DNA of 20,787 bases from a virus. The DNA lies in the IMG/VR virus record IMGVR_UViG_3300028925_004935, positions 1 to 20,787 of that record. One strand, written 5' to 3'. The translations under genes and the position numbers were made by a program. The notes beneath the pieces are model-generated. The model searched no databases. It was not told the origin of the DNA and saw only the letters and a list, made by a program, of their open reading frames with translations. Shown piece after piece: positions 2,805 through 20,704 of this stretch (the stretch's first letter is position 1; every line of letters starts with the position of its first letter).

Positions 2805-4223
2805 TTATCCTTTGATCATTACGTGCTGGTTAGCAGCGCGAGTACAAAGAGCGATCTCAGAGCGATAGTGGAAGACAGCGTTGTCTGTTCCTACATCTCC
2901 GTTGTTAGTGTGACCTAAGATGCTACCAGTTACCCAGTGCTCAAGTTCACGGTTGTACCCGTTAGCCTCCTTATAAGACATAGATAAAGCTGGTGCCTTC
3001 ATTCCGCTACGTGCGTCTGTAACCTGCGATAAAGGAATCATAGCCCCCTGTACGTAGTTAGATGCGCCTAGAAGAGTTGGGTCGTTCAATAGCTTCCAAT
3101 CGTGCTTGTGGAAAGTATATCCTCCACGAGTGAAAGATTTAAACCCAAGCTGTACAGCCATGTTTGCGTCATTGTTAAATGCTCCAAACTGTCCTGGTAA
3201 ACCAGCACTAACTGCAGAAGAGATGCCTGATGCTAACATGTCGTCGATAGCTAGGTCTTGCTTTCTGTTCACGTACATAGCGTACTCAGAAGGTGCACCT
3301 TGCTTATCAAGCTCCATGATAATATCATCGAACTCAGAGAAAGAGTCTAATGGGTTCGCGTTAGCGTTGCTTACTTGAATTCCACGATCCTCAATAGCTG
3401 AGAAGTATCCTTCAGATCCAGCAAGATCGCTACCAAGAGCTAAGCCTCCAGTCCCATCATGCTGCTGCCCTAAAAGCATCATCATTTCACGACGATCCTC
3501 AAAACGAGCGCGAGCTTCTTGCTCACCCTTCATAAACCAGCGGTATTCTCCGCCACCTACGTTTACCCAACCGATATTCGTAGCCTGTGATCCATTAACC
3601 TCGTAACGATCTTTAACGATCATATATGGGTTAGTGCGCTTCACTGCGTTGAAGTCATCGAATGCTGTGGGTTGGTTTGTTCCCTGAGCGTACATGTTAC
3701 CAAGCTTAATAAACTCTCCACCTACTAGGTCGAGGTCAGCAGAAACATCTACTGACGATCCGTCAAGCTTAACAAGTACTGCTGTAACAGGAGTCCCTGT
3801 TGCAAATCCACCAGACTGCACGAGGAATCGTGTTCCAGTAGAGCTATCCATAACTACATCGTTCTTTTGAACGTTAGATGTGAAAGCGTCTGCTCCTGCA
3901 CCCATAGTAATAGAGGATCCGTCTGCGTCACCTGTGTCACCAATTACATATGTAAATGATTTGTGACGACGACCAGCCTCCCACCAGTTTACTTCGTCAG
4001 AAGATCCACCGCTGTTAATTGCGCCTGTAAGTTTAAGAAATCCAGTGATACCTTGATCGCCGTAAGTCTCGATGAGTTGAGGCATATGCTCATCTTTAGT
4101 TGTTTTTAATAGATCGCCTACAGTTGTGTATGCTTCAGGTGTAATTCTGAAGTTACCTGCAGCTCCGTCGATTGGAGGTAAGTTACCTGTACTCGCGGTT
4201 CTATCTGTTCCTAATGTTGCCAT
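2805..4223 (-). CDS. Probable major capsid protein
   Basis: 472 residues, the usual size for an HK97-fold capsid protein of tailed phages. It lies immediately after a Gln/Glu-rich scaffold-like gene (21-base gap), the typical scaffold-capsid order. The N-terminal region (residues 25-70) contains TPEAYTTVGDLLKTT and helices typical of an N-arm. The centre contains aromatic and basic segments (GEYRWFMKGEQEARARFEDRREMM) and the C-terminal third mixes beta strands with a loop region (FGAFNNDANMAVQLGF, YTFHKHDWKLLND). There is no transmembrane segment or signal peptide. Codon and amino-acid use is balanced and the gene is uninterrupted. The call rests on size and neighbours; I cannot confirm the fold without a structure or profile search. 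Confidence 0.75.
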   Translation of the reverse strand: MATLGTDRTASTGNLPPIDGAAGNFRITPEAYTTVGDLLKTTKDEHMPQLIETYGDQGITGFLKLTGAINSGGSSDEVNWWEAGRRHKSFTYVIGDTGDADGSSITMGAGADAFTSNVQKNDVVMDSSTGTRFLVQSGGFATGTPVTAVLVKLDGSSVDVSADLDLVGGEFIKLGNMYAQGTNQPTAFDDFNAVKRTNPYMIVKDRYEVNGSQATNIGWVNVGGGEYRWFMKGEQEARARFEDRREMMMLLGQQHDGTGGLALGSDLAGSEGYFSAIEDRGIQVSNANANPLDSFSEFDDIIMELDKQGAPSEYAMYVNRKQDLAIDDMLASGISSAVSAGLPGQFGAFNNDANMAVQLGFKSFTRGGYTFHKHDWKLLNDPTLLGASNYVQGAMIPLSQVTDARSGMKAPALSMSYKEANGYNRELEHWVTGSILGHTNNGDVGTDNAVFHYRSEIALCTRAANQHVMIKG

Positions 4224-6529: not shown

Positions 6530-6937
6530 TTAGCTTCCACCGTATGGTGCAGCTGAGTTATCGTTTCCGAATACCCCGTACTCGATTAATGTGTCTATTA
6601 CAGTCCCATACACTTCGTACTTCTTGTCTACAGCAACAGGAATGAAAGCAAACTCTCCCCCGCCTACTTTAGCTACTAACCCAGTATCTGTGTCGTTATG
6701 TATGTATACGTAATTCTCTAGTTGAGAATCTAAATTCTTTATGTATAGGTACGCTCTGTCGCTACACTGATTAACTATATATATAGCTAGATCGTCACTA
6801 TCGGCTGCTGTACCTTTTACTTTTGCTCTAATAAGGCTTCCTGAGTCTAATATTAAAGATGTAGCTACAGAGATATTTAACGAGCTTGAGAGCAAGTCCG
6901 TACTACTTAATGATAAGCCTACTCTAAGATTTCCCAT
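6530..6937 (-). CDS. Tandem paralog 4, beta-rich phage protein (divergent)
   Basis: 135 residues. The N-terminal LSLSSTDLLSSSLNIS corresponds to LSSADVTGHSFNM in the 7689-8099 product. Its middle YLYIKNLDSQLENYVYI matches KVYIRNTSIGNSDYILVEL. GGGEFAFIPVAVDKKYEV matches YPGDWMFIPYAGTLDIQV, and LIEYGVFGN matches SIEYGVFSQ. It is the most divergent of the four and lacks the GRLYPGDW signature. It begins with a one-base TAATG overlap with paralog 3 and has no signal peptide. The function is unknown; a virion-surface or decoration protein is a reasonable guess because the array precedes the scaffold and capsid genes. Confidence 0.77.
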   Translation of the reverse strand: MGNLRVGLSLSSTDLLSSSLNISVATSLILDSGSLIRAKVKGTAADSDDLAIYIVNQCSDRAYLYIKNLDSQLENYVYIHNDTDTGLVAKVGGGEFAFIPVAVDKKYEVYGTVIDTLIEYGVFGNDNSAAPYGGS

Positions 6938-7689
6938 TATTGGTGTATTAACATGTTTTCTATTGACATCTCAGTGTGAACGCTTGGTTTAATCCATACA
7001 TCTGATAAAGACTTTGTACCTAAAGCTGCAGATGAAACTACTGATGTTGCGTCACTACCTCCTGTTTGTACAATTACGATATCCGCCGTAACTGTTACAA
7101 CCGTACCTGTATCTATAGAGCCTCTAGCTATAAACGTTACCGCTGCACCAGATCTTGAAGTTACCCAATTAGGGAACTGAGCCGCATCTACTTGAGCTGC
7201 AATATCAGCTACAGTAGTATTAGCAGCTGAAATTAACACCCCATCAAACTCCCAGGTTTCTCCAGCTACCCAAGTGCCACCTATAGTAGCTATAAAGGTT
7301 TCTTTTGTTCCGCCAGTTGCATTCCAAGGGAAAAACGCGAAATCTCCTGCGTATATCCTACCAATTTCTGTTACACCTCCACCATCTGTTCCGCCGTTTC
7401 CAGTTAGATAAATTGTAAAATACTCAGAAGCTATAGTAGATAGGTTTCTTAAATATACTTTATTTGCCCCGTCTGCAGTATAGTCATCTCCACGGAATAA
7501 AATCGTACTATCAATAACTCCAGCGCTTGCATAAGTTGTTGTTTTTATCGCCAAACCTGTAGTTTGAGATAACCCAAGCTTAGAGGCTGCTTTTGTTAGA
7601 GTAGTAGACGCACTGATATTAGTAGGGCTACTGGTTAGGTTTGCACTAGATAAAGAAAAGCTTGCCGTTGTCGTTGCTGTTCTTGCCAT
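6937..7689 (-). CDS. Tandem paralog 3 with a ~100-residue inserted module
   Basis: 250 residues, nearly twice its siblings. Residues 1-125 follow the family: FSLSSANLTSSPTNIS, TLTKAASKLGLSQTTG, KVYLRNLSTIASEYFTIYL and GRIYAGDFAFFPWN. Residues ~135-230 are extra: GETWEFDGVLISAANTTVAD, IAAQVDAAQFPNWVTSRSG, then VTFIARGSIDTGTVVTVTAD. That is the pattern of a small beta-alpha-beta repeat (measured value, helix of variable Ala residues, then strand) seen in many phage tail and structural proteins. The family end then returns as TEMSIENMLIHQ, against NVSIEYGVFSQ in paralog 2. The gene overlaps both neighbours by one base. The insertion is in frame and intact, so it looks like a domain gain rather than damage. 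Function unknown. Confidence 0.77.
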   Translation of the reverse strand: MARTATTTASFSLSSANLTSSPTNISASTTLTKAASKLGLSQTTGLAIKTTTYASAGVIDSTILFRGDDYTADGANKVYLRNLSTIASEYFTIYLTGNGGTDGGGVTEIGRIYAGDFAFFPWNATGGTKETFIATIGGTWVAGETWEFDGVLISAANTTVADIAAQVDAAQFPNWVTSRSGAAVTFIARGSIDTGTVVTVTADIVIVQTGGSDATSVVSSAALGTKSLSDVWIKPSVHTEMSIENMLIHQ

Positions 7690-8099
7690 TATGATACAGT
7701 TGATTGAGAGAATACCCCGTACTCAATGCTTACGTTTGTAGCTATAGTAGTTACTTGAATATCTAACGTTCCTGCATAAGGAATAAACATCCAGTCGCCA
7801 GGATAAAGCCTTCCGATTATAACGTCCCCTTCAAGCTCAACTAAGATATAATCGCTATTACCAATACTTGTATTTCTAATATAAACCTTGTGGGCTACGG
7901 TAGTATCTACATATATGCTATCCGCCACAACAACCGTATCGGTTTGCGCTGATGGATACTTTCTGCTAGTAATACCTGTAAACTCGTCTAGCCCTGTTGA
8001 AGAAGCCGCCTTAGTTAAGGTAGCTGTCTGCGTCATATTAAAGCTATGTCCTGTAACGTCTGCGCTACTAAGGATTAATGTTGCTGTTGTAGTTGCCAT
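7689..8099 (-). CDS. Tandem paralog 2, beta-rich phage protein
   Basis: 136 residues, clearly related to the preceding 137-residue product across its full length. Shared landmarks are TLTKAASSTGLDEFTGIT, YVDTTVAHKVYIRNTS, IGRLYPGDWMFIPYAGTLDI and IEYGVFSQSTVS. It has no signal peptide, membrane span or known catalytic motif. The predicted fold is all-beta, and the LYPGDW segment is the best family signature. It follows paralog 1 after 11 bases and overlaps paralog 3 by one base, so all four are probably made from one message. The level of divergence, with full-length alignment, points to old tandem duplication followed by diversification. Confidence 0.8.
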   Translation of the reverse strand: MATTTATLILSSADVTGHSFNMTQTATLTKAASSTGLDEFTGITSRKYPSAQTDTVVVADSIYVDTTVAHKVYIRNTSIGNSDYILVELEGDVIIGRLYPGDWMFIPYAGTLDIQVTTIATNVSIEYGVFSQSTVS

Positions 8100-8110
8100 A
8101 GTCTATATTA

Positions 8111-8524
8111 TTATGATGCGGTTGATTGAGAGAAAACAGCATATTCAACCTTCATATTAGCTGCACTAGTATCTATATCTACGTCTAAAGTTCCGTCGTA
8201 TGGGAAGAAGCACCAATCTCCTGGATAGAGTCTACCCATTAAAACATTACTACCTCCTAACTCCACTGTTACAAAATCGCTAGACCCAGTAGCTGAATTC
8301 TTAATATAAACTTTATGAGAAGTGGTTGTATCTACATAAGCCGCAGCAGCAACAATATTTTCTGCTGTTTTAGCAGCTGCGTATACTACAGTAGTAACAC
8401 CTGTAAACTGGTCTAAACCAGTAGCAGTACCTGCTTTATTTAAGTTAGTTGTCTTACTTAAATTTAAAGGGTCCCCAGTAATATCTGGACTAGTAAGATT
8501 AATTGTCGCTGAGATCGTAGCCAT
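8111..8524 (-). CDS. Tandem paralog 1, beta-rich phage protein
   Basis: 137 residues, first of the four-member array. It opens MATISATINLTSPDITGDPL, with NLNKAGTATGLDQFTGVT, AYVDTTTSHKVYIKNSATG, then VLMGRLYPGDWCFFPYDGTL and the end VEYAVFSQSTAS. Its closest relative is paralog 2. There is no export signal. Upstream is a 44-base spacer with a TATATTTGC motif 20 bases before the ATG, so it may open a separate transcript covering the array, scaffold and capsid genes. A structural role is inferred from position. Possible identities include a head fiber, a decoration protein or a tail-tube-associated protein; the sequence does not decide between them. Confidence 0.8.
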   Translation of the reverse strand: MATISATINLTSPDITGDPLNLSKTTNLNKAGTATGLDQFTGVTTVVYAAAKTAENIVAAAAYVDTTTSHKVYIKNSATGSSDFVTVELGGSNVLMGRLYPGDWCFFPYDGTLDVDIDTSAANMKVEYAVFSQSTAS

Positions 8525-8760: not shown

Positions 8761-9128
8761 TTTTTAGGTTTTTTTACTTTTTTCTTGCTGTAAGTATAGC
8801 TTTTTCGAGTTCCGTCAGCGTTAAGAACTTCAGTGCTAGTAGTGCTTGTGCCTCTTCTTCTCGTTCCTGATCCAAAAATCTTTGGCTTAAAGACCACTGT
8901 ATTTACAGATGTAGTGGTGGTATTTGGTTTCTCTCCATCAGGGTGTTTATGAGTGCTAACTCTAGTGTTACTGGAAGATGTAGTTGTCTTGTCTTTGCCT
9001 CTCTTATTTTTTTTTGTAGTGGTCTCCGAAGTGGTCAAATTGTTCAAGGATACGTTAACCCTAGGTTCTTTTTTGATAGACTTACCTCCGTTATTATACT
9101 TCTTAATTACCTTTTTAATTGCTTTCAT
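8757..9128 (-). CDS. Lys/Thr-rich low-complexity basic protein, 123 residues
   Basis: The N-terminus MKAIKKVIKKYNNGGKSIKK is strongly basic. The centre is Thr/Ser-rich with repeated TTTSSS and TTTTSVNTV segments. Two basic patches, FGSGTRRRG and YTYSKKKVKKPKK, end the protein. It is probably disordered with DNA- or RNA-binding capacity. The opening MKAIK and the GGK motif recur in the small basic protein at 19274-19501. It overlaps its upstream neighbour by one base and its downstream neighbour by four. No domain is recognised. The intact frame among tightly coupled genes supports that it is real despite its low complexity. Confidence 0.68.
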   Translation of the reverse strand: MKAIKKVIKKYNNGGKSIKKEPRVNVSLNNLTTSETTTKKNKRGKDKTTTSSSNTRVSTHKHPDGEKPNTTTTSVNTVVFKPKIFGSGTRRRGTSTTSTEVLNADGTRKSYTYSKKKVKKPKK

Positions 9129-9448
9129 TATTTCTTTTTTCTACAACGCCATTTACGTAAAGCTAAAGCCTTTCTTGTAGGTTTACCATTTGGCTTTTTC
9201 ATAGGTCCTTTCATCCCACTCATTCTAGCGCAAAAAGATTTGCGTCTCTTTGCAGCCTTAGACCCCGCTTTAACTTTCCCTGTTACAGCCATCTTAAGCT
9301 TGCTGCCTGGATTTGCCTTTCTGTAAGAAGCTACACCTTTTGCGTTTAATCCGCCTTTTGGATTCTTCCCTGCTTTACGTGTCCAAGCAGGAGTCTTACC
9401 TCCTTTCTTATATTCCTTTTCTTTATGTTCGCATTTACAAGCTTTCAT
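9128..9448 (-). CDS. DUF6321-like small basic phage protein
   Basis: 106 residues, extremely rich in Lys and Arg. Residues 32-100 carry the pattern GGLNAKGVASYRKANPGS, KAAKRRKSFCARMSGMKGPM, then KPTRKALALRKWRC. I recall this arrangement from short proteins of many marine phages, grouped as DUF6321. The order of GGLNAKG, RRKSFCARMSGMKGPM and LRKWRC is distinctive, so family assignment is fairly safe, although the function is not established. The N-terminus MKACKCEHKEKEYKKGGKT holds two Cys and a YKKGGK motif. High charge and conserved Cys/Trp residues suggest nucleic-acid binding, perhaps linked to packaging or the internal head. It is coupled to both neighbours by one-base overlaps. Confidence 0.78.
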   Translation of the reverse strand: MKACKCEHKEKEYKKGGKTPAWTRKAGKNPKGGLNAKGVASYRKANPGSKLKMAVTGKVKAGSKAAKRRKSFCARMSGMKGPMKKPNGKPTRKALALRKWRCRKKK

Positions 9449-9810
9449 TAGAATGCACTCATTATAACTTCGTCAACCGCATCTTGCACTTCTGATTGTG
9501 TAGCCTCAAGCTGCATCATAATGTTAGCTTGAAACCTTTCTACTTCTTCGCCTTCACTAAAAATAACAAGAGTAGGGACCACAACGATCTTATGTTCTTT
9601 TTGCATGTCAGGGTTTGACGCTATATCTATACGTCTGCCCTTACAGTCACTTAGGTTATCTAACCAGCTTACACTATTGCTAGCATTAAAACTAGCGTTA
9701 AATTCTACAACACATACACCTGAATCTGGGATATTGATCTCTTCAGGTATAGAAACATATACTGCTGTAGTGAACAAAAGAAAAGAAAGAGTGATGAGTA
9801 AAGTTTTCAT
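9448..9810 (-). CDS. Secreted thioredoxin-fold protein lacking the CxxC site
   Basis: 120 residues. Residues 1-18 are a signal peptide (MKTLLITLSFLLFTTAVYV). CVVEFNASFNAS (33-44) occupies the place of the thioredoxin beta strand and active site, where canonical members have F-x-A-x-W-C-x-x-C; here the Cys pair is replaced by Asn and polar residues. RRIDIASNPDMQKEHKIVVV followed by PTLVIFSEGEEVERF (79-93) matches the strand-helix-cis-Pro (P79)-strand-glycine-turn part of the fold. The two remaining Cys (33 and 56) are outside the active-site position. The role is therefore not classical disulfide exchange; a chaperone-like or binding role in the periplasm is inferred. It lies between the membrane protein and the DUF6321-like gene. 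Confidence 0.72.
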   Translation of the reverse strand: MKTLLITLSFLLFTTAVYVSIPEEINIPDSGVCVVEFNASFNASNSVSWLDNLSDCKGRRIDIASNPDMQKEHKIVVVPTLVIFSEGEEVERFQANIMMQLEATQSEVQDAVDEVIMSAF

Positions 9811-9816
9811 GGATTA

Positions 9817-10101
9817 TTATTTTAAAGCATCTATTTTGTCCTCAATATTTTTAAGGTCGGCTTTCATCTCCTTAACATCGTCCTGAGTAGTCATAATTGT
9901 TTGACGAACCAATTGATCTTTCATGTCAAACTCCATACGTGTAATCTCTGGATCTGGTGGCACAGGCAATTCTTTTGCTAAAGTTATGTCTGCTTGAAGA
10001 GCAAACCACATAGCAATTAATGATCCTATACCAGCAACTCCCATACCTATTGTCTTTAAGTCTAAAGTTACTTCTGTTTTCTCCCCAATCTGTTGCGCCA
10101 T
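9817..10101 (-). CDS. Single-pass membrane protein with C-terminal coiled coil (holin- or lysis-like?)
   Basis: 94 residues. A polar N-terminus (MAQQIGEKTEVTLDL) precedes one hydrophobic segment at about residues 17-36 (TIGMGVAGIGSLIAMWFALQ). Then comes a Pro-rich hinge (LPVPPDPEI) and a heptad-type charged helix to the end (DDVKEMKADLKNIEDKIDAL). One transmembrane helix plus a coiled coil is compatible with a small holin, an inner-membrane spanin-type subunit or a structural membrane anchor. No endolysin lies next to it in this window, so the lysis reading is weak. It sits in a run of envelope-directed genes (beta-barrel upstream, secreted thioredoxin-fold protein downstream). Confidence 0.72.
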   Translation of the reverse strand: MAQQIGEKTEVTLDLKTIGMGVAGIGSLIAMWFALQADITLAKELPVPPDPEITRMEFDMKDQLVRQTIMTTQDDVKEMKADLKNIEDKIDALK

Positions 10102-10104
10102 ATC

Positions 10105-10320
10105 TTATGCTTTTGATTCTAATTTAGTTCTTGCTATATACTTTCCGTCGGCATCTCTAGTTAAAATATATCCTAATTTTTGTTCGTTTGCGTCTGCCGA
10201 ACTACTCCATATTTTTTTTGCTATCTCCCTATTAACGGACATCCCTATAGACCCCTCATAGGGCATACTGTAATTTACAGTATTTTTCTTTTTCTTTTTC
10301 TTTTTAATGATATTTGGCAT
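10105..10320 (-). CDS. Small Lys-rich phage protein, 71 residues
   Basis: The N-terminus is MPNIIKKKKKKKN with eight successive or near-successive lysines. The remainder is a compact soluble part (YSMPYEGSIGMSVNREIAKK, then KLGYILTRDADGKYIARTKL). No family is recognised. It fits between the beta-barrel gene (2-base gap) and the membrane protein (3-base gap), and its reading frame fills the space without overlap, which supports a real gene. The poly-Lys start suggests an interaction with nucleic acid or acidic surfaces. Confidence 0.65.
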   Translation of the reverse strand: MPNIIKKKKKKKNTVNYSMPYEGSIGMSVNREIAKKIWSSSADANEQKLGYILTRDADGKYIARTKLESKA

Positions 10321-10322
10321 AT

Positions 10323-11360
10323 TTATAATATTACATAGTTAAGTCCCACTGAGAAATCGTGCCACTCTCTGTTCCAATACTTATTGTATTTTCCCTCTAA
10401 GAACACACCAAGACTCTTATTTAATCTCCAACCAAAGATAAGACCTCCAGAGTAATCTATCCACTGGTCCCCGCTTGTTGCTTCAAAGTAAGAGTACTCG
10501 CTGTCAACCCTTAGGTGATAAGGCATTACACTCGCCCAGCTGTGCATCCAAAAGTTTTTAGAAAATTTATAATAGTCAAATCCTACTACTATTGAGTGGT
10601 TCCATTGGCTAGGAAGCTCGCTTCTTTTACGAAACACATAATCATCTATAACCTCAGGAACAACCACCTGCTCCCAAACATCTGCACTTGTAGCAACAAG
10701 AAATCCTTCTGAATTGTAATATTCGTTAGCAGATACATCTACAGTGTATCCCTCTTGAATAGCAAGAGTGGTATAATGTAAATTCCCATTAGATAACATC
10801 CACTCTTCTAAGGCGTCATAGCCATAAGGCTCGGATATTCGTTGTGCAATGCCAAGATTAAAACTAAGCCTATCATTTACACTTAATCGTAATCTTTGTG
10901 ATCCTTCAAAATACTCTACGTCCGCAAAACCATCCTGTACATATTCCACTTTAGTTACCCAGTCCTTAGCAACGTATCTAACAAAATGATTTTGATCTAA
11001 AAAGTTTACTCCTTGTTGTCGTCTCCAATCAGCTTCAAATAAAAACTCAAAGCCTTTTACTTTACCTACTGTAGCTGCGTCACTATATGATTTTTCTGTT
11101 CCGTTATAAAAAGCATTAGCTCGGTTCTCATATCCAAACCTAGCTATTTTACGAACTCCAGCAGTAAAAGAATAATCAAAAGGAGTCTCTATAATGTCCG
11201 TTTGTAAAGAGTTAGTTACAGAATATACGCTATTATCAGAAATAGAATTCCCTCCGCTGAATGCAGTATAAAAAGTTGCAAACTTAAAAGTCTTTTTTAA
11301 GGTTTGGCTACTAACACTAAATGAAAGTAACGAGAATAATATAACTAATAAATACCTCAT
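10323..11360 (-). CDS. Probable outer-membrane beta-barrel protein
   Basis: 345 residues. Residues 1-19 are a signal peptide (MRYLLVILFSLLSFSVSSQ, cleavage likely before Gln19). The mature part alternates hydrophobic and polar residues in many aromatic-rich strands (FATFYTAFSGG, FEFLFEADWRRQQG, WNHSIVVGFDYYKFSKNFWM, DYSGGLIFGWRLNKSLGVFL). It ends WHDFSVGLNYVIL, like the last strand of outer-membrane barrels recognised by BamA. No plug or TonB box was seen. I considered a PorP/SprF-type T9SS component, because such barrels accompany T9SS cargo, but its N-terminal signature is missing. It lies just downstream of the T9SS type A protein, separated by one small gene. Roles such as surface receptor change or superinfection exclusion are inference. 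Confidence 0.68.
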   Translation of the reverse strand: MRYLLVILFSLLSFSVSSQTLKKTFKFATFYTAFSGGNSISDNSVYSVTNSLQTDIIETPFDYSFTAGVRKIARFGYENRANAFYNGTEKSYSDAATVGKVKGFEFLFEADWRRQQGVNFLDQNHFVRYVAKDWVTKVEYVQDGFADVEYFEGSQRLRLSVNDRLSFNLGIAQRISEPYGYDALEEWMLSNGNLHYTTLAIQEGYTVDVSANEYYNSEGFLVATSADVWEQVVVPEVIDDYVFRKRSELPSQWNHSIVVGFDYYKFSKNFWMHSWASVMPYHLRVDSEYSYFEATSGDQWIDYSGGLIFGWRLNKSLGVFLEGKYNKYWNREWHDFSVGLNYVIL

Positions 11361-11362
11361 GG

Positions 11363-11563
11363 TTATTGTAAAATTATTTGATTGTAAAAATTTTTATCTA
11401 TATCCTTAATAGGGTTTACAAAATTAACTTTGCAGTGCCTATTTATTTCTTGTCTCTTAGTTTTGCTATTAGTAACACAAACGTTAGCCGCTTGGTAAGA
11501 AGCGTTCTTACCTAAAAGACTATCAATACGTTTCTTAATCTTTTTATTCGTTAAATAACTCAT
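11363..11563 (-). CDS. Small basic protein of unknown function, 66 residues
   Basis: MSYLTNKKIKKRIDSLLGKN opens a basic amphipathic helix, followed by a short region with two Cys (ANVCVTNSKTKRQEINRHC) and a hydrophobic C-terminus (NFYNQIILQ). No family is recognised and there is no signal peptide. Its ATG overlaps the stop of the T9SS type A gene by four bases (ATGA), and its own stop lies 2 bases before the barrel gene start. It is thus locked between two envelope genes and probably translated from the same message. Function unknown. Confidence 0.62.
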   Translation of the reverse strand: MSYLTNKKIKKRIDSLLGKNASYQAANVCVTNSKTKRQEINRHCKVNFVNPIKDIDKNFYNQIILQ

Positions 11564-13563
11564 GACTTTATTATTTTTTTAATTAAAATTCTTCCGTTAT
11601 AATTTACAACAACCTCATAGAGGCCTTTAGGTAGATGCGTAAGGTTGATTCTTTTATCTCTAGTGCTTGGTATTACAATTTGACCAAAAGCATTGTACAC
11701 CTCTGTAAGGACGTTCTGAGAGGTCTGTATGTTTAATACGTCGCTTACTGGGTTAGGGTACACATCAAACCCATTGTTAGCTTCTGGAACTCCTGTTGGC
11801 CATCCCTGCTCACAATAGCTGTATAAATCAATACAAGCGTTGTCCCATTCTACTTCGCAACAGTATGGATCTATTGTTATTATCCACGCATAGCATGAGT
11901 CGTTTAAGTAATAAGGGGTACCTGGTTCACCTATACATCCCGCATCGTATAAACATAATTCATTACTAGGGGAGTTGGCTAACTCATTGTAATTCACTGC
12001 GTTAGGGTCCGTGCAGTCAACAACTACTTCAATGCAGTCTCCTGTATCTACGTTAGCTTCACTATCATAATTTAAGGCTAGCTCATCCATACATCCAAAT
12101 AAAGCTAATTCATTACAACTCCCATTGTCGTAGTCCGCTACATAACCCTGATTGTAGTATTCTACATATCCCGCTTGAGTGCAACCCGCAAAAAAATAAC
12201 AAGTATTATCTTCGGCGTTAGCATCTACATCGTAGTTCTGAGCTTCTATATCCATGCACCCGTATACAAATACCTCACAGTAATTAGAACACGTTGGTGT
12301 TTCAGTGTATTTATATGGAAATTTTTTAAGAGGATCTGTCCAGGGGTTTGTTCCACTCTGTAGCACCGTTCCGTTCGGGCCTTCAATTCTAAAGCCACAT
12401 TGTGAAGCTGTTGTTTCTGCATTACCCTCCGTGAAAAAATAAACACTTATCTCTTCGTTTGAGTTTAGAGTTAGATTAAAATCCTCTTCATACCCATCAT
12501 TTACTCCCATTGAGTAAGGACCGTAGACACTGTCTCCTTGAGTCATTCCTAACCAACTACCAAACCATCCGTCTGCTCCACCGTCTGTAATAGTAAGGGT
12601 GTAATCACATGAAGGGTGAACATCCATAGTGTTTGCCAAGACATCGTAATTAAACATTGTAATGTCTGTACAACCTAACGTTACAAGTGTATTACAACTT
12701 CCATCATCTGTAACTGCTAAAGGATTGTATTCTACATATCCTGGCGTAGTGCATCCTTGAAAAGATACAGGTGCACATACAGGTACTATGTAGGGATTAG
12801 AAGAAATTGTGTCAAACTGAGTTTCTCCGCCCACTGTAAAAATACTATCTCCACACAATGTTAGCACATTGAAATATCCATCTACTCCTCCCCAACAAGT
12901 ACCGCACATTCCGTCTCCGTAAGTATCATAAATAGTAGCTACAAGAGTATCTCCTTCGTTAACACATGTGTAAGTTGGTATTGTTACTCCTGTAGTTCCT
13001 TCGTACCCTCCAGATATAAGAGTGTCTCCGTTAACTGTTATCTGCCAGCTCGTTTCATTAGGATAGCTATCAGGAGTAATAAGAGAAATAATGTTAGTTT
13101 GGCCGCTAGCACAAGCGGCTGGGGGAAAGGTACAAGGAGCAGGAGAATTAGCCCAAGGATTAAAGTTTAAAGCTTCTGCTTCCATACATCCTATTACGGG
13201 TGGTGGGCAAGCTAGCAAGTCAAAGTATACAGTTGCTGTAGGACTGTTAAAATCATATACAAATGTATTTAAACCACAGTTGTTAACTAGACCAAAATAC
13301 CCTTCTCCCCAATCACAACATATACCATCACCAAATTGATCATATATAACAAAGTTATATCCTCCTGGGGGAAGAGTAACAAATATTTCATTATACGAGT
13401 TGTTTGCGTATGCCCCAGATATAGCTACAATAGTACTGTCTTCGTAAATTTCCCAGCTAGTTTCTCCTCCGTAGTTATCGGCCTGTACTATTACATTAAC
13501 CCAACTGCTTTGAGATAAAATTGTTACAGGTAAAAAAAATAAAAAGAAGATTAATTTTTTCAT
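11560..13563 (-). CDS. Secreted T9SS type A cargo protein (adhesin-like)
   Basis: 667 residues from MKKLIFFLFFLPVTILSQS, a clear signal peptide. An in-frame Met 13 codons upstream is rejected because it would bury the signal. Residues 21-118 and about 155-258 are two beta domains sharing SW(E/Q)I, (I/V)YDxxGDG and GYF motifs. Six or seven Cys repeats of the form GC(T/M)D..A.NY...A....C lie at about 125-145, 270-290, 297-320, 435-455, 460-483, 490-510 and 516-537. A CCEVEWDNAC motif is at 568-577. Residues 599-667 (FDVYPNPVSDVLNI, LPKGLYEVVV, KKIIKS) form a type A C-terminal sorting domain, which the host T9SS recognises for passage over the outer membrane and anchoring. Its place between packaging and capsid genes is unusual. 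A surface adhesin or shield role is inferred. Confidence 0.88.
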   Translation of the reverse strand: MKKLIFFLFFLPVTILSQSSWVNVIVQADNYGGETSWEIYEDSTIVAISGAYANNSYNEIFVTLPPGGYNFVIYDQFGDGICCDWGEGYFGLVNNCGLNTFVYDFNSPTATVYFDLLACPPPVIGCMEAEALNFNPWANSPAPCTFPPAACASGQTNIISLITPDSYPNETSWQITVNGDTLISGGYEGTTGVTIPTYTCVNEGDTLVATIYDTYGDGMCGTCWGGVDGYFNVLTLCGDSIFTVGGETQFDTISSNPYIVPVCAPVSFQGCTTPGYVEYNPLAVTDDGSCNTLVTLGCTDITMFNYDVLANTMDVHPSCDYTLTITDGGADGWFGSWLGMTQGDSVYGPYSMGVNDGYEEDFNLTLNSNEEISVYFFTEGNAETTASQCGFRIEGPNGTVLQSGTNPWTDPLKKFPYKYTETPTCSNYCEVFVYGCMDIEAQNYDVDANAEDNTCYFFAGCTQAGYVEYYNQGYVADYDNGSCNELALFGCMDELALNYDSEANVDTGDCIEVVVDCTDPNAVNYNELANSPSNELCLYDAGCIGEPGTPYYLNDSCYAWIITIDPYCCEVEWDNACIDLYSYCEQGWPTGVPEANNGFDVYPNPVSDVLNIQTSQNVLTEVYNAFGQIVIPSTRDKRINLTHLPKGLYEVVVNYNGRILIKKIIKS
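11953..13191 (-). repeat. Coding repeats: Cys-rich GC(T/M)D-A-NY-DGSC units
   Basis: Within the T9SS type A protein, about seven degenerate ~20-residue units begin with GC and end with C. The clearest are GCMDIEAQNYDVDANAEDNTC, GCMDELALNYDSEANVDTGD and the weaker CTDPNAVNYNELANSPSNEL. They are interrupted by a beta domain at residues 321-427. Units of this shape are common in secreted proteins of marine Flavobacteriia; Asp/Asn-rich loops suggest calcium binding, which is inference. Confidence 0.7.
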
Positions 13564-14254: not shown

Positions 14255-16693
14255 TTATTCGTTTAATAATGCATTAATTAGTTTGTTTGAACCTTCAGGC
14301 AGCTCCTCTCTTTTCCCTTGTCTTTGAGATATAAGTTTGCTTTGGTCGGAGGTTTGTTGATCTAGCCTGTCGTCTTTACGGGTTTCTTTTAAAACCTCAA
14401 GTTTTTCTTTAAACTCTTTATCGTCCTCTTTAAATCCAAGAGTAGCTTGAGCTTTAAGCATTTCAATTTCTTTAGTAAACTCATGCCTCATTTGCGCCAT
14501 CTTCATATCGACCTGCGCTTGCATTTGAATTTTTTGAGTGTCAATTTGACCCTGCGCTTGCATTTCAGACATTTTAGCTTGTTGTGCCTGTTGTGCTATT
14601 TGACCCTGCATTTTAGCTTGTTGCTCTGAGTTCTGCTGAGCCATCTGCTGCTGCATAGCCATTCTTTTTTTACGCCTAACAACAAGAAGCCTTTCCGCTT
14701 GGTTGATATCTTTTAAACCTCTAACAGCTATAGCGTCTTCTAAATCTAACTCTTGTTGTTGAAGGGCCATCTGGATGTTTTGTTCTAGATAAGCCTTATC
14801 TTTCTCCTCCATGTCTTTTACAACAACTACCCCAAAGTTGTACATTGGAAGGTCTCTGAAAGAAGCTAAAGCCTCCATATTTGTGTCTCCGATAGCGTTC
14901 TCATATATTTTATATAGAACAGATTCAGTAGGTATAATTTGAATGCATTTAACTATATCCTCACATACTTTTTTAAACAAAACCATAGCGGCATTTGTTA
15001 TATCATATATAGCGTTATTACCTGCAGCTATAGCTTGATTTTGAACACCAACTAAAGCATCACCTTTAGGGGAAGAAGCGTCCATTGCTTCATTGATTCC
15101 CGTTGTATCTCTTATTAAACCTAAGTAATGGTTATATAAACCTACAAGTTCATTAATGTTTCTTATGCTATTGCTTATCTCTCTAACAGGAGGGTTTTGG
15201 AATCCACCTTCGGGGTTTTTACTTCTGTAATAAAAAACACCTGTCTGCTCATATATGTCATGAAGATCTAAAGGCTGTAGCTCTCCACCTTTTCCTAGCT
15301 GTACATTCTCTAATCCTTCTATATCTATAATCAAACCATCTGGTTTGGCTTTTGCTATAGCTTGCTGTATCTTTAAGTGAGTAAGCTGAAGCATATCTGC
15401 AAATCCCACACAGCTATTTACCATAGATTTTGGCATCATGTTACGGATATTAGTTGCCGTTACAGAATAAGACAATGTAGCCTTAGATATATCGTGTATA
15501 TTTTTAGGTACGTTCTTAGTTTTGCCATACCCAAATAAATAATCACAACCTAAAACATAACTTCCGCCATAAACAGTAGACACCTCTAATTTATGAGGGG
15601 TTCTCTCAAACACACTGTTCTTGTTAGGTTGCTCCTCAAAGCCTTTAAAGTAAAACCCCGTGTTGCCATGTTTGTTTTCTTTTTCTTCAAAATGAATGCA
15701 ATCGACAGAAATAAACTCAAAGTCTAAAACCTCAACCATATAATCGTCATATCCAAATGAGGTCTTACCTAGGGCTTGACTATAGTTGTTCTTATTGTAT
15801 TTTCCAGAATCATTACCATTTCGGCCTTTAGATTTCTGAGCAATCTTTTTGTAGTCCTCCTCATTTAATTCCTCTCCAGCTAAACGTTTTAACTCTTGTA
15901 TAGAGATTTTTTTTATGTGCCCAGCGTATATAAGATCTTCGAAATTAGGGTCTTCTGTGTAGCTATGTATAAACATACACGGATCTACGTAAGATGTTTT
16001 AATGCCTTCGTTTGGATCGTTTGACCTTTTTACTACAGACATACCTAGAGTAGCCAAGTCATTTACACATCTTCGGAAAGTATTATCTACGAAGTTATTC
16101 CACGTAAGAGTAAGTTCCGTCCCTAGCTGAGCCGATATCTCCCCGTCTGTTTTAACGTTAGTGTCAAATAAAATCTCCGCTTCTTCTGGTGTATCTGGAA
16201 TAGAATCTGGATCCATATCTAAAACAACACCCGTCTTATCTTTTAGCTCTTTAAGTTTATCCTTAGAGTCAACTTGCTTTAAAATCCTTTTCTTTTTTTC
16301 ATTTTTTTCAGAAGAAGATAAAGGGTCTACCGCTTCTAAATTAGGATAAGGATTAACAGACAATATCTTGTTAACTACAATTCTTACGAATTTAGGTAGA
16401 ATAGGGACTGGGGTGTAATCCATATTTAACAAAGCTCCGTCCGCTTTATTTGGATTCAGGGAATTTAATAGCTGCTTATATATACTTGTATCTTGAACCC
16501 CAATAGCATAATCTCGGTCTTTCTCAAAAGTTTTATTTCTCTTACCTACTAAAGAAGAATCGTCCGTAGTTTTTCCCCATTGAGATTCAATAGCTTTAGC
16601 GTACTGAACACCATATTCTTTCTTTTGCTTTAATTCCGTAGATTCTAATGGATCTGGGAAACCCTGCTTGCTTTTATTCTCGTTATTATACAT
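14255..16693 (-). CDS. Portal protein
   Basis: 812 residues, directly downstream of the terminase gene, where portals sit in most tailed phages. The N-terminal region has QKKEYGVQYAKAIESQW and DRDYAIGVQDTSIYKQLL. Residues 85-130 (PVPILPKFVRIVVNKILSVN) match the early helical part of portals. The centre carries typical portal stem/wing features (SYVDPCMFIHSYTEDPNFED, NHYLGLIRDTTGINEAMDAS, GVQNQAIAAGNNAIYD). Residues ~670-790 are a long Gln/Met/Lys coiled coil (MQQQMAQQNSEQQ, then AQMRHEFTKEIEMLKAQ), which may form an extended barrel reaching into the head. At 812 residues it is larger than most portals, closer to podovirus or crAss-like lengths. Assignment rests on order, length and the RDTTGINEA-type segment common in portals. 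Confidence 0.85.
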   Translation of the reverse strand: MYNNENKSKQGFPDPLESTELKQKKEYGVQYAKAIESQWGKTTDDSSLVGKRNKTFEKDRDYAIGVQDTSIYKQLLNSLNPNKADGALLNMDYTPVPILPKFVRIVVNKILSVNPYPNLEAVDPLSSSEKNEKKKRILKQVDSKDKLKELKDKTGVVLDMDPDSIPDTPEEAEILFDTNVKTDGEISAQLGTELTLTWNNFVDNTFRRCVNDLATLGMSVVKRSNDPNEGIKTSYVDPCMFIHSYTEDPNFEDLIYAGHIKKISIQELKRLAGEELNEEDYKKIAQKSKGRNGNDSGKYNKNNYSQALGKTSFGYDDYMVEVLDFEFISVDCIHFEEKENKHGNTGFYFKGFEEQPNKNSVFERTPHKLEVSTVYGGSYVLGCDYLFGYGKTKNVPKNIHDISKATLSYSVTATNIRNMMPKSMVNSCVGFADMLQLTHLKIQQAIAKAKPDGLIIDIEGLENVQLGKGGELQPLDLHDIYEQTGVFYYRSKNPEGGFQNPPVREISNSIRNINELVGLYNHYLGLIRDTTGINEAMDASSPKGDALVGVQNQAIAAGNNAIYDITNAAMVLFKKVCEDIVKCIQIIPTESVLYKIYENAIGDTNMEALASFRDLPMYNFGVVVVKDMEEKDKAYLEQNIQMALQQQELDLEDAIAVRGLKDINQAERLLVVRRKKRMAMQQQMAQQNSEQQAKMQGQIAQQAQQAKMSEMQAQGQIDTQKIQMQAQVDMKMAQMRHEFTKEIEMLKAQATLGFKEDDKEFKEKLEVLKETRKDDRLDQQTSDQSKLISQRQGKREELPEGSNKLINALLNE

Positions 16694-16732: not shown

Positions 16733-18850
16733 TCATCCGATTACTTGATATCTCCTAAAGAATCGTTTTTCAGACAAGTCAGAAGTCTTTTTAGACTTAG
16801 CTTTTTGCGCTCCTAATAGAGCTAATCCAGAGCTAATCGTAAGGTCATATTTAGTTCTATCGTCTATCTTATAACCTATCCAATCCTCTAGTGTTTTATT
16901 AAAATACATTTTTCCAACATCTCCCGTTTCTCTATTTGTTCCTACATGGTCATGTATAAAGGCCTCTATAGCATGTGCGTGAGCTTGGATTACATCTTGT
17001 GAGTTAGATGGGATACCTTTTGTTTTAGATTTCATTCCGCTAGCGCTGATTAAATGCTTAGGCCTATCCATTAAATACCCGTCATACCCTCTGGCTTCAA
17101 AGTGCCTTGCGATACCATATTTGTTATTCTCTATTAATATAGGGTAACCATAAAACACAGAGGCCATTAAAACATCTTCGTAGAATATTTTAGCTAAAGG
17201 AGGTCTTGAAGCATACTCTAGTACAAACATGTTGCAAGGGTGCTCCATGTGAAACTTGTTGTATAGATGTAAGGAGCCTTTTGATCCTCTCCCGTCTACA
17301 GTAGCGTCAAGATCATACGAGTCAACTCCACCCACTCCAAAATTTGAATGAGGAGCTACCCTCTTGCCTCTCTCTGTTTTCTTTTGGTTTCTAAAATCAG
17401 GAGGTGGCATCCAGGCAATTTTAAATCTACCCTGAACGTTTGGGCTAAATACTACCTCAGTGTCTTTTACCCCTCCTTTCCAGACAAAGTTTCCCGCAAC
17501 AACAGGGTTAGGAAACAGCTCGTCGTTATGCTCTATCTGTTCATAGATCTGCCCGATGTTAAATACACTCCCTTCTATACTATCCCTAAAGGCTTCGTCT
17601 TCCGTAAAGGGGAATTGCCTGACCACTTCGTTTAACTCCGAAGCATCGTTTTTTAAAGAGTCTCTTTCATTCTTTAAGAATGTTTTAGCCCCGATATAAA
17701 TGTACTCGTTATCTATACCTTCTGTAGTATCTATAGGGTCTTCAACTATTGGGTGACCAAACTTATCAAAGAAACCTTCTAGAGAATTATATGCAGGAAT
17801 AAAAAGTCTATATAGACCAGTTCTAGTCCTCCCATTCGCGTTCCTCTCCAAAGGATTTGAGTCCTCCCAAAGATCCTTGTATTGACTTCCCCCTTTGTCC
17901 ATTGGGTTTACCGTGCTTCCGACCATTGCCTTCCCCACGATTTTTCTTCCGACGATCAAACAAGTCCTCTGAATCCTCCAAGCGTCTCTTATGTCTGTAG
18001 GTCTTTCCCATTTTCCTGCTTCATCTAAATACAACAGGTGTAACTTCTCCCCGTCATATGCGTTATTTGTTGTGTTTTTCCAATTTATAACCGTGTTCAA
18101 AGCTTCCCCCATTTGAGAGGTTTTGTTCTTCTTGGTTATTCTTTTCGATGGCTCTCTAAAGGCCAGCTCCATACGCGGATTGGTTGTACCGTCCTGGATA
18201 GGCTTAAAAAAGAAAGGGTAGTTTCTAAACATAAAAACAACCTTCTTCATAAATATATTTTCTTGGGCATCCTTACCAGTCTTAGACTGAATCCCCATAA
18301 GTTTGTCTTTGACTTGCGTCCCTTCGTCTACAAGCACAGATGAACACATATTTGTGTACCCACTACGACGACACTTAGTATATAGCTGACCTATACATCT
18401 AGGATCAATTTCACACGCCGCTAAGTGTAAGAAGATATCTCTTTGGAAGTTTAAAAAATACGGGTAACCAATATCCATCTTGGTCCACTGTATCATCATG
18501 TAGTGCCGCCCCGTAATATATGTAGCTGTGCCGTTGTTATAAAACCAAAAACCCTCACGCCTACGCCTAAACTCTTCCTCGATATATGGACGAAACCTTG
18601 CTCTAAACTCTCGTGGCATTTCCGCCCACTCATCCATAGAACGAATACGAGACAGTTCCTGCGGCATAAGTACCCTTCCCCACATTTGCATAGAGTTTGG
18701 TTCTTTATATCCTGAAATTTCTTTTTTCGGAGGCCTTTTTGGAAGGCAAATGAGTAGCCCACCGAGTTCAATAAGCTCACCTTCCGTACCGTTGGGACAA
18801 ATTTTAACAGCTGGTTCTTCATACTCTTTAACATCTAAAAGTATACTCAA
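16733..18850 (-). CDS. terL: Terminase large subunit (DNA packaging ATPase/nuclease)
   Basis: 705 residues, at the upper end of the family. Residues 159-166 read KCRRSGYT, a deviant Walker A in which the usual GK(S/T) lysine is Tyr and a Lys starts the motif; I recall lambda gpA having the same layout (KSARVGYS). Walker B is LLYLDEA (273-279), followed by the coupling motif GSTVNP (311-316). FTEDEAF at 416-421 marks the linker. The RNase H-like nuclease shows GVDSYD (508-513), IENNKYG (573-579) and a C-terminal KYDL (667-670) as candidates for the acidic metal ligands. It pumps DNA into the prohead through the portal and cuts concatemers. Its ATG overlaps the zinc-ribbon gene stop by 4 bases; no recognisable small terminase is adjacent. 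Confidence 0.9.
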   Translation of the reverse strand: MSILLDVKEYEEPAVKICPNGTEGELIELGGLLICLPKRPPKKEISGYKEPNSMQMWGRVLMPQELSRIRSMDEWAEMPREFRARFRPYIEEEFRRRREGFWFYNNGTATYITGRHYMMIQWTKMDIGYPYFLNFQRDIFLHLAACEIDPRCIGQLYTKCRRSGYTNMCSSVLVDEGTQVKDKLMGIQSKTGKDAQENIFMKKVVFMFRNYPFFFKPIQDGTTNPRMELAFREPSKRITKKNKTSQMGEALNTVINWKNTTNNAYDGEKLHLLYLDEAGKWERPTDIRDAWRIQRTCLIVGRKIVGKAMVGSTVNPMDKGGSQYKDLWEDSNPLERNANGRTRTGLYRLFIPAYNSLEGFFDKFGHPIVEDPIDTTEGIDNEYIYIGAKTFLKNERDSLKNDASELNEVVRQFPFTEDEAFRDSIEGSVFNIGQIYEQIEHNDELFPNPVVAGNFVWKGGVKDTEVVFSPNVQGRFKIAWMPPPDFRNQKKTERGKRVAPHSNFGVGGVDSYDLDATVDGRGSKGSLHLYNKFHMEHPCNMFVLEYASRPPLAKIFYEDVLMASVFYGYPILIENNKYGIARHFEARGYDGYLMDRPKHLISASGMKSKTKGIPSNSQDVIQAHAHAIEAFIHDHVGTNRETGDVGKMYFNKTLEDWIGYKIDDRTKYDLTISSGLALLGAQKAKSKKTSDLSEKRFFRRYQVIG

Positions 18851-19039: not shown

Positions 19040-19249
19040 TTAAAATTCAGCTCTAATGTAACCTCCTGCATGCTTGTACGGGGACATGTATTTTGGCGCT
19101 GGGCCATCGCAACACCATTCGGCGCCTCCTCCCCAAGAGTCTATACACCAGCATTGATTGTAATGTCTCGCTTGAGACCTTCTGTGTTTAGTTTGCACAG
19201 AACATGACGCTAATAATATAGCAGACATAAAGATAAGTAAATATTTCAT
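19040..19249 (-). CDS. Small Cys-rich phage lipoprotein
   Basis: 69 residues. MKYLLIFMSAILLASCSVQT is a lipoprotein signal: charged start, hydrophobic core and LLASC lipobox with lipidated Cys16. The mature part is short and Cys/Trp-rich (YNQCWCIDSWGGGAEWCCDG), then PAPKYMSPYKHAGGYIRAEF. The four extra Cys may form disulfides in the periplasm or on the surface. The gene ends 5 bases before the zinc-ribbon start. Small phage lipoproteins often block superinfection or act as outer-membrane spanins; spanins have a partner gene with an inner-membrane anchor, and none is adjacent here. Function is therefore open, but the lipoprotein call is clear. Confidence 0.8.
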   Translation of the reverse strand: MKYLLIFMSAILLASCSVQTKHRRSQARHYNQCWCIDSWGGGAEWCCDGPAPKYMSPYKHAGGYIRAEF

Positions 19250-19531: not shown

Positions 19532-20704
19532 TTAGCGAAATATTGTTACAAGCCCTTGCAGCTGGGTGGCTTTTCCAGACTGAGTCGCGTTAAGCTTCCA
19601 AGTATAAACCCCATCAGGGCACAACCAATGTTGAGAAAAACTTGTCCCTGTCCAATAACCCATTGGATCGGTTATTTCTTTTACAAGCGTCCCCCATCTA
19701 TTGTATATCTGCATATTCCACGTTAACCAACACGTTGGATCGGTTATTGCATAAAATACATCATTGACCCCATCATTATTAGGGGTAAAAGTATTAGGAA
19801 TGAAAATACTGTTATCGTCACAGTCATTAATCCCGCCTCCACCATCTTCACAAGGTAAACCTGTATAGCAATCTATATATTCAGTTGAAAATACATATTC
19901 AGTAAGCGTTAAAGTATCTGTAACATAAACGTAATTATCTACAACTACGTCTACATACATCGTATCGGTTAAATAAATATACTCGTATTCAACAAGAGTA
20001 TCTGTTATATAAACTAATTGTAATAAATATTCTATTATAGTATCTGTTGTTACCCACTCTACATCTATATACTCAATTATTGTATCTGTGATGTACTCGA
20101 TAACTTCTACGTCTACATACACTGTATCACATGCAGGCAGAGCACAATTAACAACGGTGTTATTAGAAAGATCTACGTCAGGGTAGTTCTGCGTTTGGTT
20201 AAACCCTGGATTTACCGCCCAACCGCCATCATCTATAAAAGCTGTGCGAGATAGATTAATCTGCCATACAACTAACTCAGTACATAGCGTATCGTTAGCT
20301 AATACCTCAGTCCAACAATCACTTGTACTTGCCCCTGTATCATAGACATTAGCACTCCAAGTATCCCCACTCTCTAGCATTTGATTTCCATAAAGAGTAA
20401 AAACTTTAAACGTCCATCCTGGGTGATTGACTCCAGTCAAACAATCCAACCAATTATAATCCAACCCTTCTACATGCAACCCTAAAACTATTGATGAGAC
20501 TGTTTCGTTATTAGTTACGTACGGACTAGAGCTATTCTCACACGTATTACCTTCAGTTGTAAATTCATTGCAACCACAGTTCTCACTGTTAATAGCCTCT
20601 ATAACAATATCCCCTGTTATAGCATCCCAACTACTTATAGCTACATCGCATTGTGCAGATAGCGTTGGAACCCATAAAGCTAATAGATATATTAATTTTC
20701 GCAT
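19532..20704 (-). CDS. Secreted T9SS type B (gliding-motility-type CTD) protein
   Basis: 390 residues. Residues 1-18 are a signal peptide (MRKLIYLLALWVPTLSAQ). Residues 19-190 form a Cys-containing beta domain (SNCs such as ENCGCNEF, NSSSPYVTNNETV, WTEVLANDTLCTELVVWQIN). Residues 192-279 are a stalk of degenerate (V/I)TDT..EY repeats. Residues 300-390 are a type B sorting domain: IFIPNTFTPNNDGVNDVF, MQIYNRWGTLVKEI, then WLCPDGVYTWKL and LVTIFR. This is the CHU_C/gliding-motility-associated domain, which directs export by the host T9SS, often with an adjacent SprF-like partner; none is adjacent here. The ATG overlaps the stop of the preceding secreted-protein gene by 13 bases. Presumed cell-surface or adhesin role. 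Confidence 0.88.
   Translation of the reverse strand: MRKLIYLLALWVPTLSAQCDVAISSWDAITGDIVIEAINSENCGCNEFTTEGNTCENSSSPYVTNNETVSSIVLGLHVEGLDYNWLDCLTGVNHPGWTFKVFTLYGNQMLESGDTWSANVYDTGASTSDCWTEVLANDTLCTELVVWQINLSRTAFIDDGGWAVNPGFNQTQNYPDVDLSNNTVVNCALPACDTVYVDVEVIEYITDTIIEYIDVEWVTTDTIIEYLLQLVYITDTLVEYEYIYLTDTMYVDVVVDNYVYVTDTLTLTEYVFSTEYIDCYTGLPCEDGGGGINDCDDNSIFIPNTFTPNNDGVNDVFYAITDPTCWLTWNMQIYNRWGTLVKEITDPMGYWTGTSFSQHWLCPDGVYTWKLNATQSGKATQLQGLVTIFR
19868..20131 (-). repeat. Coding repeat: (V/I)TDT-EY stalk in the T9SS type B protein
   Basis: Residues 192-279 repeat the motif TDT(I/L/M) followed by hydrophobic-EY, as in EYITDTIIEY, TTDTIIEY, YITDTLVEY, YLTDTMYV and YVTDTLTLTEY. The period is near 12-17 residues. 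It suggests an elongated beta stalk separating the N-terminal domain from the sorting domain. Confidence 0.7.

Follow-up and report, generated by a model that had tools for sequence, protein, structure and literature searches.

A type A T9SS cargo gene belongs to a four-gene cassette in viruses of marine Bacteroidota

The cargo gene and its neighbours

The type IX secretion system (T9SS) serves Bacteroidota in gliding, adhesion and polymer breakdown. We describe a viral gene, placed between portal and capsid genes, whose 667-residue product carries a T9SS type A sorting domain; it lies in an IMG/VR viral fragment (IMGVR_UViG_3300028925_004935) of 20,787 bases, the whole of which was analysed and is called the window below. 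This cargo gene is one of four linked viral genes, the others encoding a predicted outer-membrane beta-barrel, a 94-residue protein and a secreted thioredoxin-like protein (Table 1), and the cassette that they form is conserved in viruses of marine Bacteroidota.

An initial annotation of this DNA, which gave no strand, had described an intact protein with a signal peptide and a C-terminal sorting domain; the open reading frame (ORF) is real, lies on the minus strand and has no internal stop. Assignment of the C-terminal domain (CTD) to type A is upheld by two profiles, PF18962 (Pfam; residues 601-665 matched at 42.3 bits, with the cut-off at 27) and TIGR04183 (NCBIfam; 34.8 against 23), and by structure. 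An AlphaFold2 model of the cargo (49-row alignment; mean predicted local distance difference test score (pLDDT) 79.5; predicted template modelling score 0.39) shows three beta domains and the Cys repeats, together with the CTD and a CCxxxWD domain that is small and helical. Modelled residues 597-667 superpose on the NucA CTD of 8glk (Z 8.8, root-mean-square deviation 2.2 over 70 residues), with Z 8.9 for RemZ (8gl8) and 8.7 for RemA (8gl6) among CTDs solved in T9SS complexes, a range of 8.3-8.9 over 8glk, 8gl8, 8gl6 and 8glj, and Z 8.6 for the RgpB CTD. Foldseek searches with the entire cargo were swamped by multi-domain chance matches. The two beta domains first recognized as related align at 35% over 88 residues (E 2e-8), and the model adds a third; domain 2 weakly resembles the calcium-dependent carbohydrate-binding module CBM60 (2xfd, Z 7.7; 2xhh, Z 7.1), a family that Pfam detected in none of 49 cargo members. 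Seven Cys repeats, a CCxxxWDxxC motif (CCEVEWDNAC) and the terminal YPNP...KKIIKS pattern are directly readable, as the annotation had stated.

Relatives of the cargo are encoded at 31 viral loci (loci carry the prefix L). Across 27 viral members the Cys and Trp residues of the CCxxxWD domain are unchanged, and of the family's 96 distinct cargo ORFs 89 have, by a crude rule, a hydrophobic N-terminal core. The cargo is under purifying selection (ratio of nonsynonymous to synonymous substitution rates, dN/dS, 0.05, 0.12 and 0.10 against L003, L005 and L006). Seven of the 31 loci (L026-L032) encode viral proteins of 211-317 residues that have only the GC[MT]D...NY...DNGSC Cys repeats in common with the cargo and lie in a different context. 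Searching named phages with the cargo by tblastn returned nothing, and PHROGs gave no significant match for the cargo, the barrel, the 94-residue or the thioredoxin-like protein.

Beyond its CTD match, the cargo was not found to have merely near-identical host homologs, one of the two outcomes that the annotation had named as fatal: its CCxxxWD domain occurs in 2/395 Bacteroidota genomes. The barrel profile likewise matches 2/395, one being the metagenome-assembled genome (MAG) in which it was found, and scanning a species-genome collection turned up five loci of the barrel, every one on a MAG contig. Late expression, also anticipated, is probable from gene order. The suggestion that a secreted, surface-sorted protein sits between portal and capsid genes stands; the impression of a lone oddity does not, as the gene belongs to a four-gene cassette that elsewhere often lies beside holin or endolysin genes. 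Both this neighbouring cassette and a type B T9SS protein in the window had been missed.

Table 1. Features of the window, with the basis of each assignment.
Feature	Coordinates	Strand	Basis or remark
T9SS type A cargo, 667 residues	11560..13563	-	ATG at 13563, stop 11560-11562; PF18962 and TIGR04183 above cut-off
Predicted signal peptide, residues 1-19	13507..13563	-	by eye and hydropathy
Beta domain 1, residues 20-116	13216..13506	-	model; related to domain 2
Beta domain 2, residues 155-254	12802..13101	-	weakly CBM60-like
Beta domain 3, residues 318-421	12301..12612	-	model
CCxxxWDxxC domain, residues 551-585, small, helical	11809..11913	-	model; invariant Cys and Trp
T9SS type A CTD, residues 597-667	11563..11775	-	profile and structure matches
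66-residue ORF	11363..11563	-	ATG overlaps cargo stop (ATGA); kept only by near relatives
Type I outer-membrane beta-barrel, 345 residues, signal peptide, about 12 strands	10323..11360	-	alignment, model, structure matches
71-residue ORF between barrel and 94-residue protein genes	10105..10320	-	in L002 and L004; not in L003, L005
94-residue protein	9817..10101	-	membrane helix predicted at about residues 17-35, followed by a coiled-coil-like stretch
Secreted thioredoxin-like protein, 120 residues, without CxxC	9448..9810	-	profile
Terminase large subunit (TerL)	16733..18850	-	phrog_6681, E 2.6e-200 (context)
Portal protein	14255..16693	-	phrog_6547, E 3.7e-191 (context)
Capsid-type virion structural protein	2805..4223	-	phrog_13704, E 7.9e-114 (context)
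Second T9SS cargo (390 residues) with a type B CTD	19532..20704	-	PF13585, 51.8 bits (cut-off 27); TIGR04131, 40.1 (cut-off 35)

Cassette composition and linkage

Linkage is most cleanly tested from the 94-residue protein, the barrel-locus set including loci found via the cargo. At the loci found from the 94-residue protein alone with enough flank (n=59), the barrel and the thioredoxin-like gene are each present in 59/59, and a T9SS cargo in 56/59. The barrel-locus set comprises 96 distinct loci, 75 of them well flanked, with 1 kb of sequence upstream of the barrel and 2 kb beyond it; out of at least 564 barrels, the analysis covered the best 80. A CTD cargo lies within 2 kb of the barrel at 72 of the 75 well-flanked loci, both small genes are present at 71 and all four genes at 68. 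Over the full set, the CTD cargo is directly upstream of the barrel, within 400 nt, at 78/96 loci, and at 47/96 the end of the cargo gene shares 1 or 4 nt with the beginning of the barrel gene. Starting from the cargo and excluding L026-L032, the barrel gene lies in the cargo's block at 23 of 24 loci, and the exception (L013) stops about 0.4 kb past the cargo. PF18962 was detected in 45/50 barrel-bearing records, above cut-off in 41/50.

The three well-flanked barrel loci without a CTD (L017, L095, L106) encode a CCxxxWD protein with a different tail, possibly a different sorting signal. These tails are of DGTVERKYFQ (L017:10001-12241), DGSTERKLIINK (L095:7432-9498) and DGSVDKKYMR (L106:6487-9165) types. 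Tandem pairs of T9SS type A cargos lie upstream of the barrel at L058, L059, L060 and L069 and on the contig of L274. At L077 a staphylococcal-nuclease-like gene (5542-5889; PF00565, E 2e-13) separates the thioredoxin-like gene from the cargo, and L112:2277-2630 looks similar.

Viral relatives are numerous, with the barrel on at least 564 contigs and the 94-residue protein on at least 592. The cassette has two main gene orders and also occurs on contigs without TerL and portal genes of the window's type in view. Nor is it fixed in the portal lineage: among 21 portal relatives with 6.5 kb downstream, ten lack the cassette there, and the barrel is absent from all ten records.

Modelled from 16 sequences (pLDDT 62.8), the barrel shows about 12 strands, and its best structure matches are barrels such as Tsx, EstA, KdgM, NanC, NalP and FapF (Z 12-15). 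FadL chains appear among the weaker Foldseek matches; PorV and PorP/SprF are not among the matches listed, an absence that is uninformative. Lipobox-like motifs occur in 5/135 barrels. The long, conserved insert at residues 177-251 would be an extracellular loop if both barrel ends are periplasmic. BFVD holds one strong relative, A0A516LKJ4 (E 9e-22). Searching named phages with two barrels by tblastn found nothing, values up to E 10 giving chance-level matches only, and the barrel is absent from the cultured relative elemoE; no cassette-bearing isolate is therefore at hand.

The 94-residue protein has its predicted membrane helix and heptads, with a coiled-coil-like stretch of about 45 residues. 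The thioredoxin-like family matches thioredoxins of the PDB by profile (best E 3.8e-7), and looks like a redox-dead thioredoxin fold: the CxxC active site is found in none of 122 distinct members, an FNxxFN-type motif replacing it in 116/122, and VPT is kept in 121/122.

Barrel type and cargo presence

Cargo presence follows barrel type. The three loci found via the 94-residue protein that have no cargo carry a divergent barrel, here called type II, and a portal-first survey (21 loci, 6.5 kb downstream) found the cargo in 9/9 loci with a type I barrel, 0/2 with type II and 0/10 without a barrel. Whole-record searches with PF18962 agreed, being positive for 0/10 type II contigs, 0/10 barrel-less portal relatives and 1/1 further type I contig, although several cargo-less contigs are short fragments in which absence is no proof for each. 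Locus L120 matches the window in TerL (90%), portal (90%) and 94-residue protein (86%), with a barrel at 39% and no cargo, whereas the more distant L018 (TerL 82%, portal 71%) has a barrel at 80% and keeps the cargo. Because the thioredoxin-like gene persists in cargo-less type II cassettes, a role for its product as mere cargo chaperone is unlikely.

The barrel also co-diversifies with the C-terminal part of the cargo. Identities of the barrel and of the cargo C-part (CCxxxWD domain and CTD) are correlated at r 0.84 across 85 cassettes, and those of the barrel and the N-part at 0.43; given TerL (15 phages), the values are 0.64 and 0.10. The barrel insert 177-251 differs most by type, at 22% between types against 59% and 79% within them. 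No part of the cassette varies more than the cargo N-part (mean identity 0.49 versus 0.59-0.81).

Lysis-gene neighbourhood

In many lineages, though not in all, the cassette is lysis-associated. Holins of phrog_3427 (E 1.1e-31 for L106, 5.5e-22 for L123) overlap the cargo or barrel start at several loci and elsewhere come after the thioredoxin-like gene; the Pfam family GTA_holin_3TM falls slightly under cut-off for L106 and L092. The holin also abuts or overlaps genes of the cargo-less type II cassettes L123, L194 and L198, and at L020, L022, L023 and L083 an amidase endolysin lies 14-18 nt past the thioredoxin-like gene. A holin was found in 39/50 cassette records, at most 3 kb from the cassette in 23 of these and farther in 16. 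Relatives of this holin are annotated in some named phages as a holin overlapping an endolysin.

Proposed mechanism and alternatives

We propose, with about even confidence, that the cargo forms the surface component of an envelope cassette carried by the phage, exported late through the T9SS and held by the phage barrel. Late in infection, host Sec and T9SS would export the cargo to the cell surface, where the barrel encoded just downstream may be dedicated to it as a shuttle or anchor in the outer membrane, in the way that SprF partners SprB; the pairing would perhaps be made via the long loop of the barrel, and the 94-residue and thioredoxin-like proteins would serve the barrel from the periplasmic side. 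Alternatively, the barrel may act after PorV as the final anchor. Precedent comes from Flavobacterium johnsoniae, in which, according to two reports (PMC12618676, PMC9143113), a type B cargo forms a cognate pair, required for secretion, with an SprF/PorP-like barrel whose gene directly follows; the same sources describe PorP-like barrels as anchors of type B cargos. By analogy, the barrel may work like SprF though it is not classed as one. Contact between cargo and barrel would give the observed correlation with the cargo C-part and the type-divergent insert.

What the cargo might do at the surface is more tentative. Its variable, possibly sugar-binding N-terminal domains may cover or reshape host glycans near lysis, such that receptors on dying cells and debris would cease to capture progeny or to let rivals in, a purpose that we favour but put at somewhat below an even chance. 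Phage envelope proteins have been reported to prevent progeny from binding debris (PMC13164509, PMC9586334).

Several points weigh against these proposals. Every type A CTD is said to use the host shuttle PorV (PMC12618676), so a dedicated barrel would be unneeded for export. The model gives the barrel about 12 strands rather than 14; Pfam gave a PorP/SprF or other T9SS shuttle match for none of 16 barrel members at E up to 0.1; and 11 of these 16 have no cysteine beyond residue 25, SprF being described as having a conserved cysteine pair in its tail (PMC12635249). Shared ancestry accounts for part of the barrel-cargo correlation and is only partly excluded. In the group of the window, with its portal-cassette-capsid order, seven relatives with the portal in view have their holin 23-30 kb distant. 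Sugar-binding by domain 2 is a lead rather than a result, its structural Z values being below 8. Finally, receptor-masking proteins such as Llp are described as acting early, not at lysis.

The proposal can be extended to an add-on for the host T9SS, in which a dedicated non-PorP barrel would receive a type A cargo from the translocon and anchor it at the surface. The barrel would be coupled to a coiled coil in the inner membrane and to a redox-dead thioredoxin, and triggered together with the holin, making secretion and lysis one programme; taken whole, this extension is unlikely.

Chief among the alternatives is a lysis machine, in which the barrel, the 94-residue protein and the thioredoxin-like protein would form a non-canonical, spanin-like complex that disrupts the outer membrane, the barrel replacing the outer-membrane spanin (o-spanin) lipoprotein, with the cargo as an outer part that loosens glycans or the outer membrane. 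We consider it rather improbable, while recognizing that the gene neighbourhood speaks for it: several arrangements, cargo-less type II cassettes included, have the holin overlapping or abutting the gene for the cargo, the barrel or the thioredoxin-like protein, and many cassettes have a holin or the amidase endolysin close by, as detailed above. The 94-residue protein, with one predicted membrane helix and a coiled-coil-like stretch, has features suited to such a complex, and Kongari et al. list spanin-less Croceibacter and Bacteroides phages and consider that an outer-membrane protein could act as o-spanin (PMC6139136). Yet by our estimate a coil of about 45 residues looks short to span the periplasm, the holin is far away in 16 of 39 records, the group of the window among them, and no known spanin step needs a T9SS surface protein. 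Spanin PHROG matches for the cassette proteins were at chance level (94-residue family, E 0.77 for a single member), and one survey finds solely unimolecular spanins in Bacteroidetes phages (PMC12596118).

Adhesion, by which the cargo would make infected cells or their fragments cling to one another, or to particles or new hosts, and so aid virion transfer, is improbable. A repeat-rich surface cargo with a weakly CBM60-like domain, whose N-part varies most within the cassette, would suit such a role, and adhesins are described among T9SS surface proteins; a family search, however, found no adhesin domain in the cargo, and expression near lysis leaves little time for action. Still less credible is packaging of the cargo or barrel in, or its attachment to, virions. 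Location within the head gene block, in the portal-capsid interval, is what recommends it, but signal peptides and the CTD point away from the cytoplasm, the block sits at other positions in other phages, and 10/21 well-flanked portal relatives do without it there. That the cargo is a host gene, present through contamination or chance pick-up, is scarcely credible: T9SS cargos are typical host genes and all five barrel matches of the species-genome collection lie on MAG contigs, but the barrel occurs on at least 564 viral contigs and shares a block with TerL and portal genes on many, and the genes are near-absent from the 395 Bacteroidota genomes. Contamination is thus ruled out, short of systematic assembly error, by the viral counts, this near-absence, the viral relatives and the low dN/dS.

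Relation to known systems

The closest likeness is to SprB-SprF and PG1035-PorP-PorE, in which, as in the cassette, a T9SS surface cargo and a directly downstream outer-membrane barrel behave as a pair; the latter system has a periplasmic partner, PorE, where the cassette has its 94-residue and thioredoxin-like proteins. The cassette differs from SprB-SprF and PG1035-PorP in its type A rather than type B CTD, its barrel, modelled with about 12 rather than 14 strands, and its phage origin, and the barrel differs from PorP/SprF in having no Pfam match to them and, in most members, no mature cysteines, unlike the conserved pair of SprF.

Phage T9SS cargos were previously known (PMC7468147, PMC6949934). 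The T9SS genes of Cryophage likewise encode variable cargos with type A CTDs, for which superinfection exclusion was proposed, but those cargos are an endoglucanase, a GH39 enzyme and a PA14 protein in variable islands, and the accessible text mentions no barrel, small partners or lysis link (PMC7468147). In crAss-like cluster 2, proteins with T9SS sorting domains also lie near (upstream of) head genes; these are gut phages with BACON domains, and the part of the source available does not mention a cassette (PMC6949934). The exclusion genes Cor and Llp (T1, T5) resemble the cassette in encoding phage envelope proteins said to keep progeny off debris, and Cor is described as adjoining genes for a membrane protein and an outer-membrane protein; they differ in that a small lipoprotein blocks FhuA from the periplasmic side, early and without T9SS. 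Two-component spanins share an inner-membrane coiled-coil candidate, an outer-membrane partner and a lysis neighbourhood with the cassette, in which, however, that partner is a beta-barrel rather than a lipoprotein, the coil is short and there is no spanin family match.

The literature searched, which left out most subscription papers and all preprints, describes neither the four-gene cassette nor the pairing of a phage barrel with a T9SS cargo nor the lysis-gene link. If true, the pairing of a type A cargo with a barrel of its own would be new, and the barrel would be the first shuttle cognate to a type A CTD, and one that serves at the lysis stage; a module common among marine phages, with its barrel on at least 564 viral contigs, would then redirect the T9SS late in infection. 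The proposal opens to testing the ways in which Bacteroidota phages deal with the outer membrane and the cell surface at lysis, and the question whether type A cargos can have a barrel partner of their own besides PorV, for which the contrast of type I and type II barrels is a ready natural experiment.

Other features of the window

Relatives of the window's TerL among named phages number 100 records, every one below 60% identity, and their hosts are mostly Flavobacterium and Cellulophaga, with a few Bacteroides and Azobacteroides. Promoter and terminator scans gave signals no higher than in shuffles, and PADLOC gave no match. The type B cargo lies upstream of TerL, has repeated TDTxxEY-like stretches and shows no PorP/SprF-like barrel alongside; with type B CTDs above cut-off in 8/50 cassette records, it is an occasional extra outside the conserved cassette. 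A predicted lipoprotein of 69 residues (LLASC; 19040-19249, minus strand) gave a very weak match to the Rz-like spanin family phrog_6073 (E 0.046). Next to the thioredoxin-like gene, a basic protein of 106 residues (9128-9448, minus strand) belongs to phrog_4689 (E 2.6e-28), a group of unknown function that elsewhere forms the C-terminal part of larger phage proteins. Positions 6530-8524 (minus strand) encode a row of paralogous beta-rich proteins of 135, 250, 136 and 137 residues with MATTTATLxLSSADxT-like starts, and similar rows are present on other cassette contigs.

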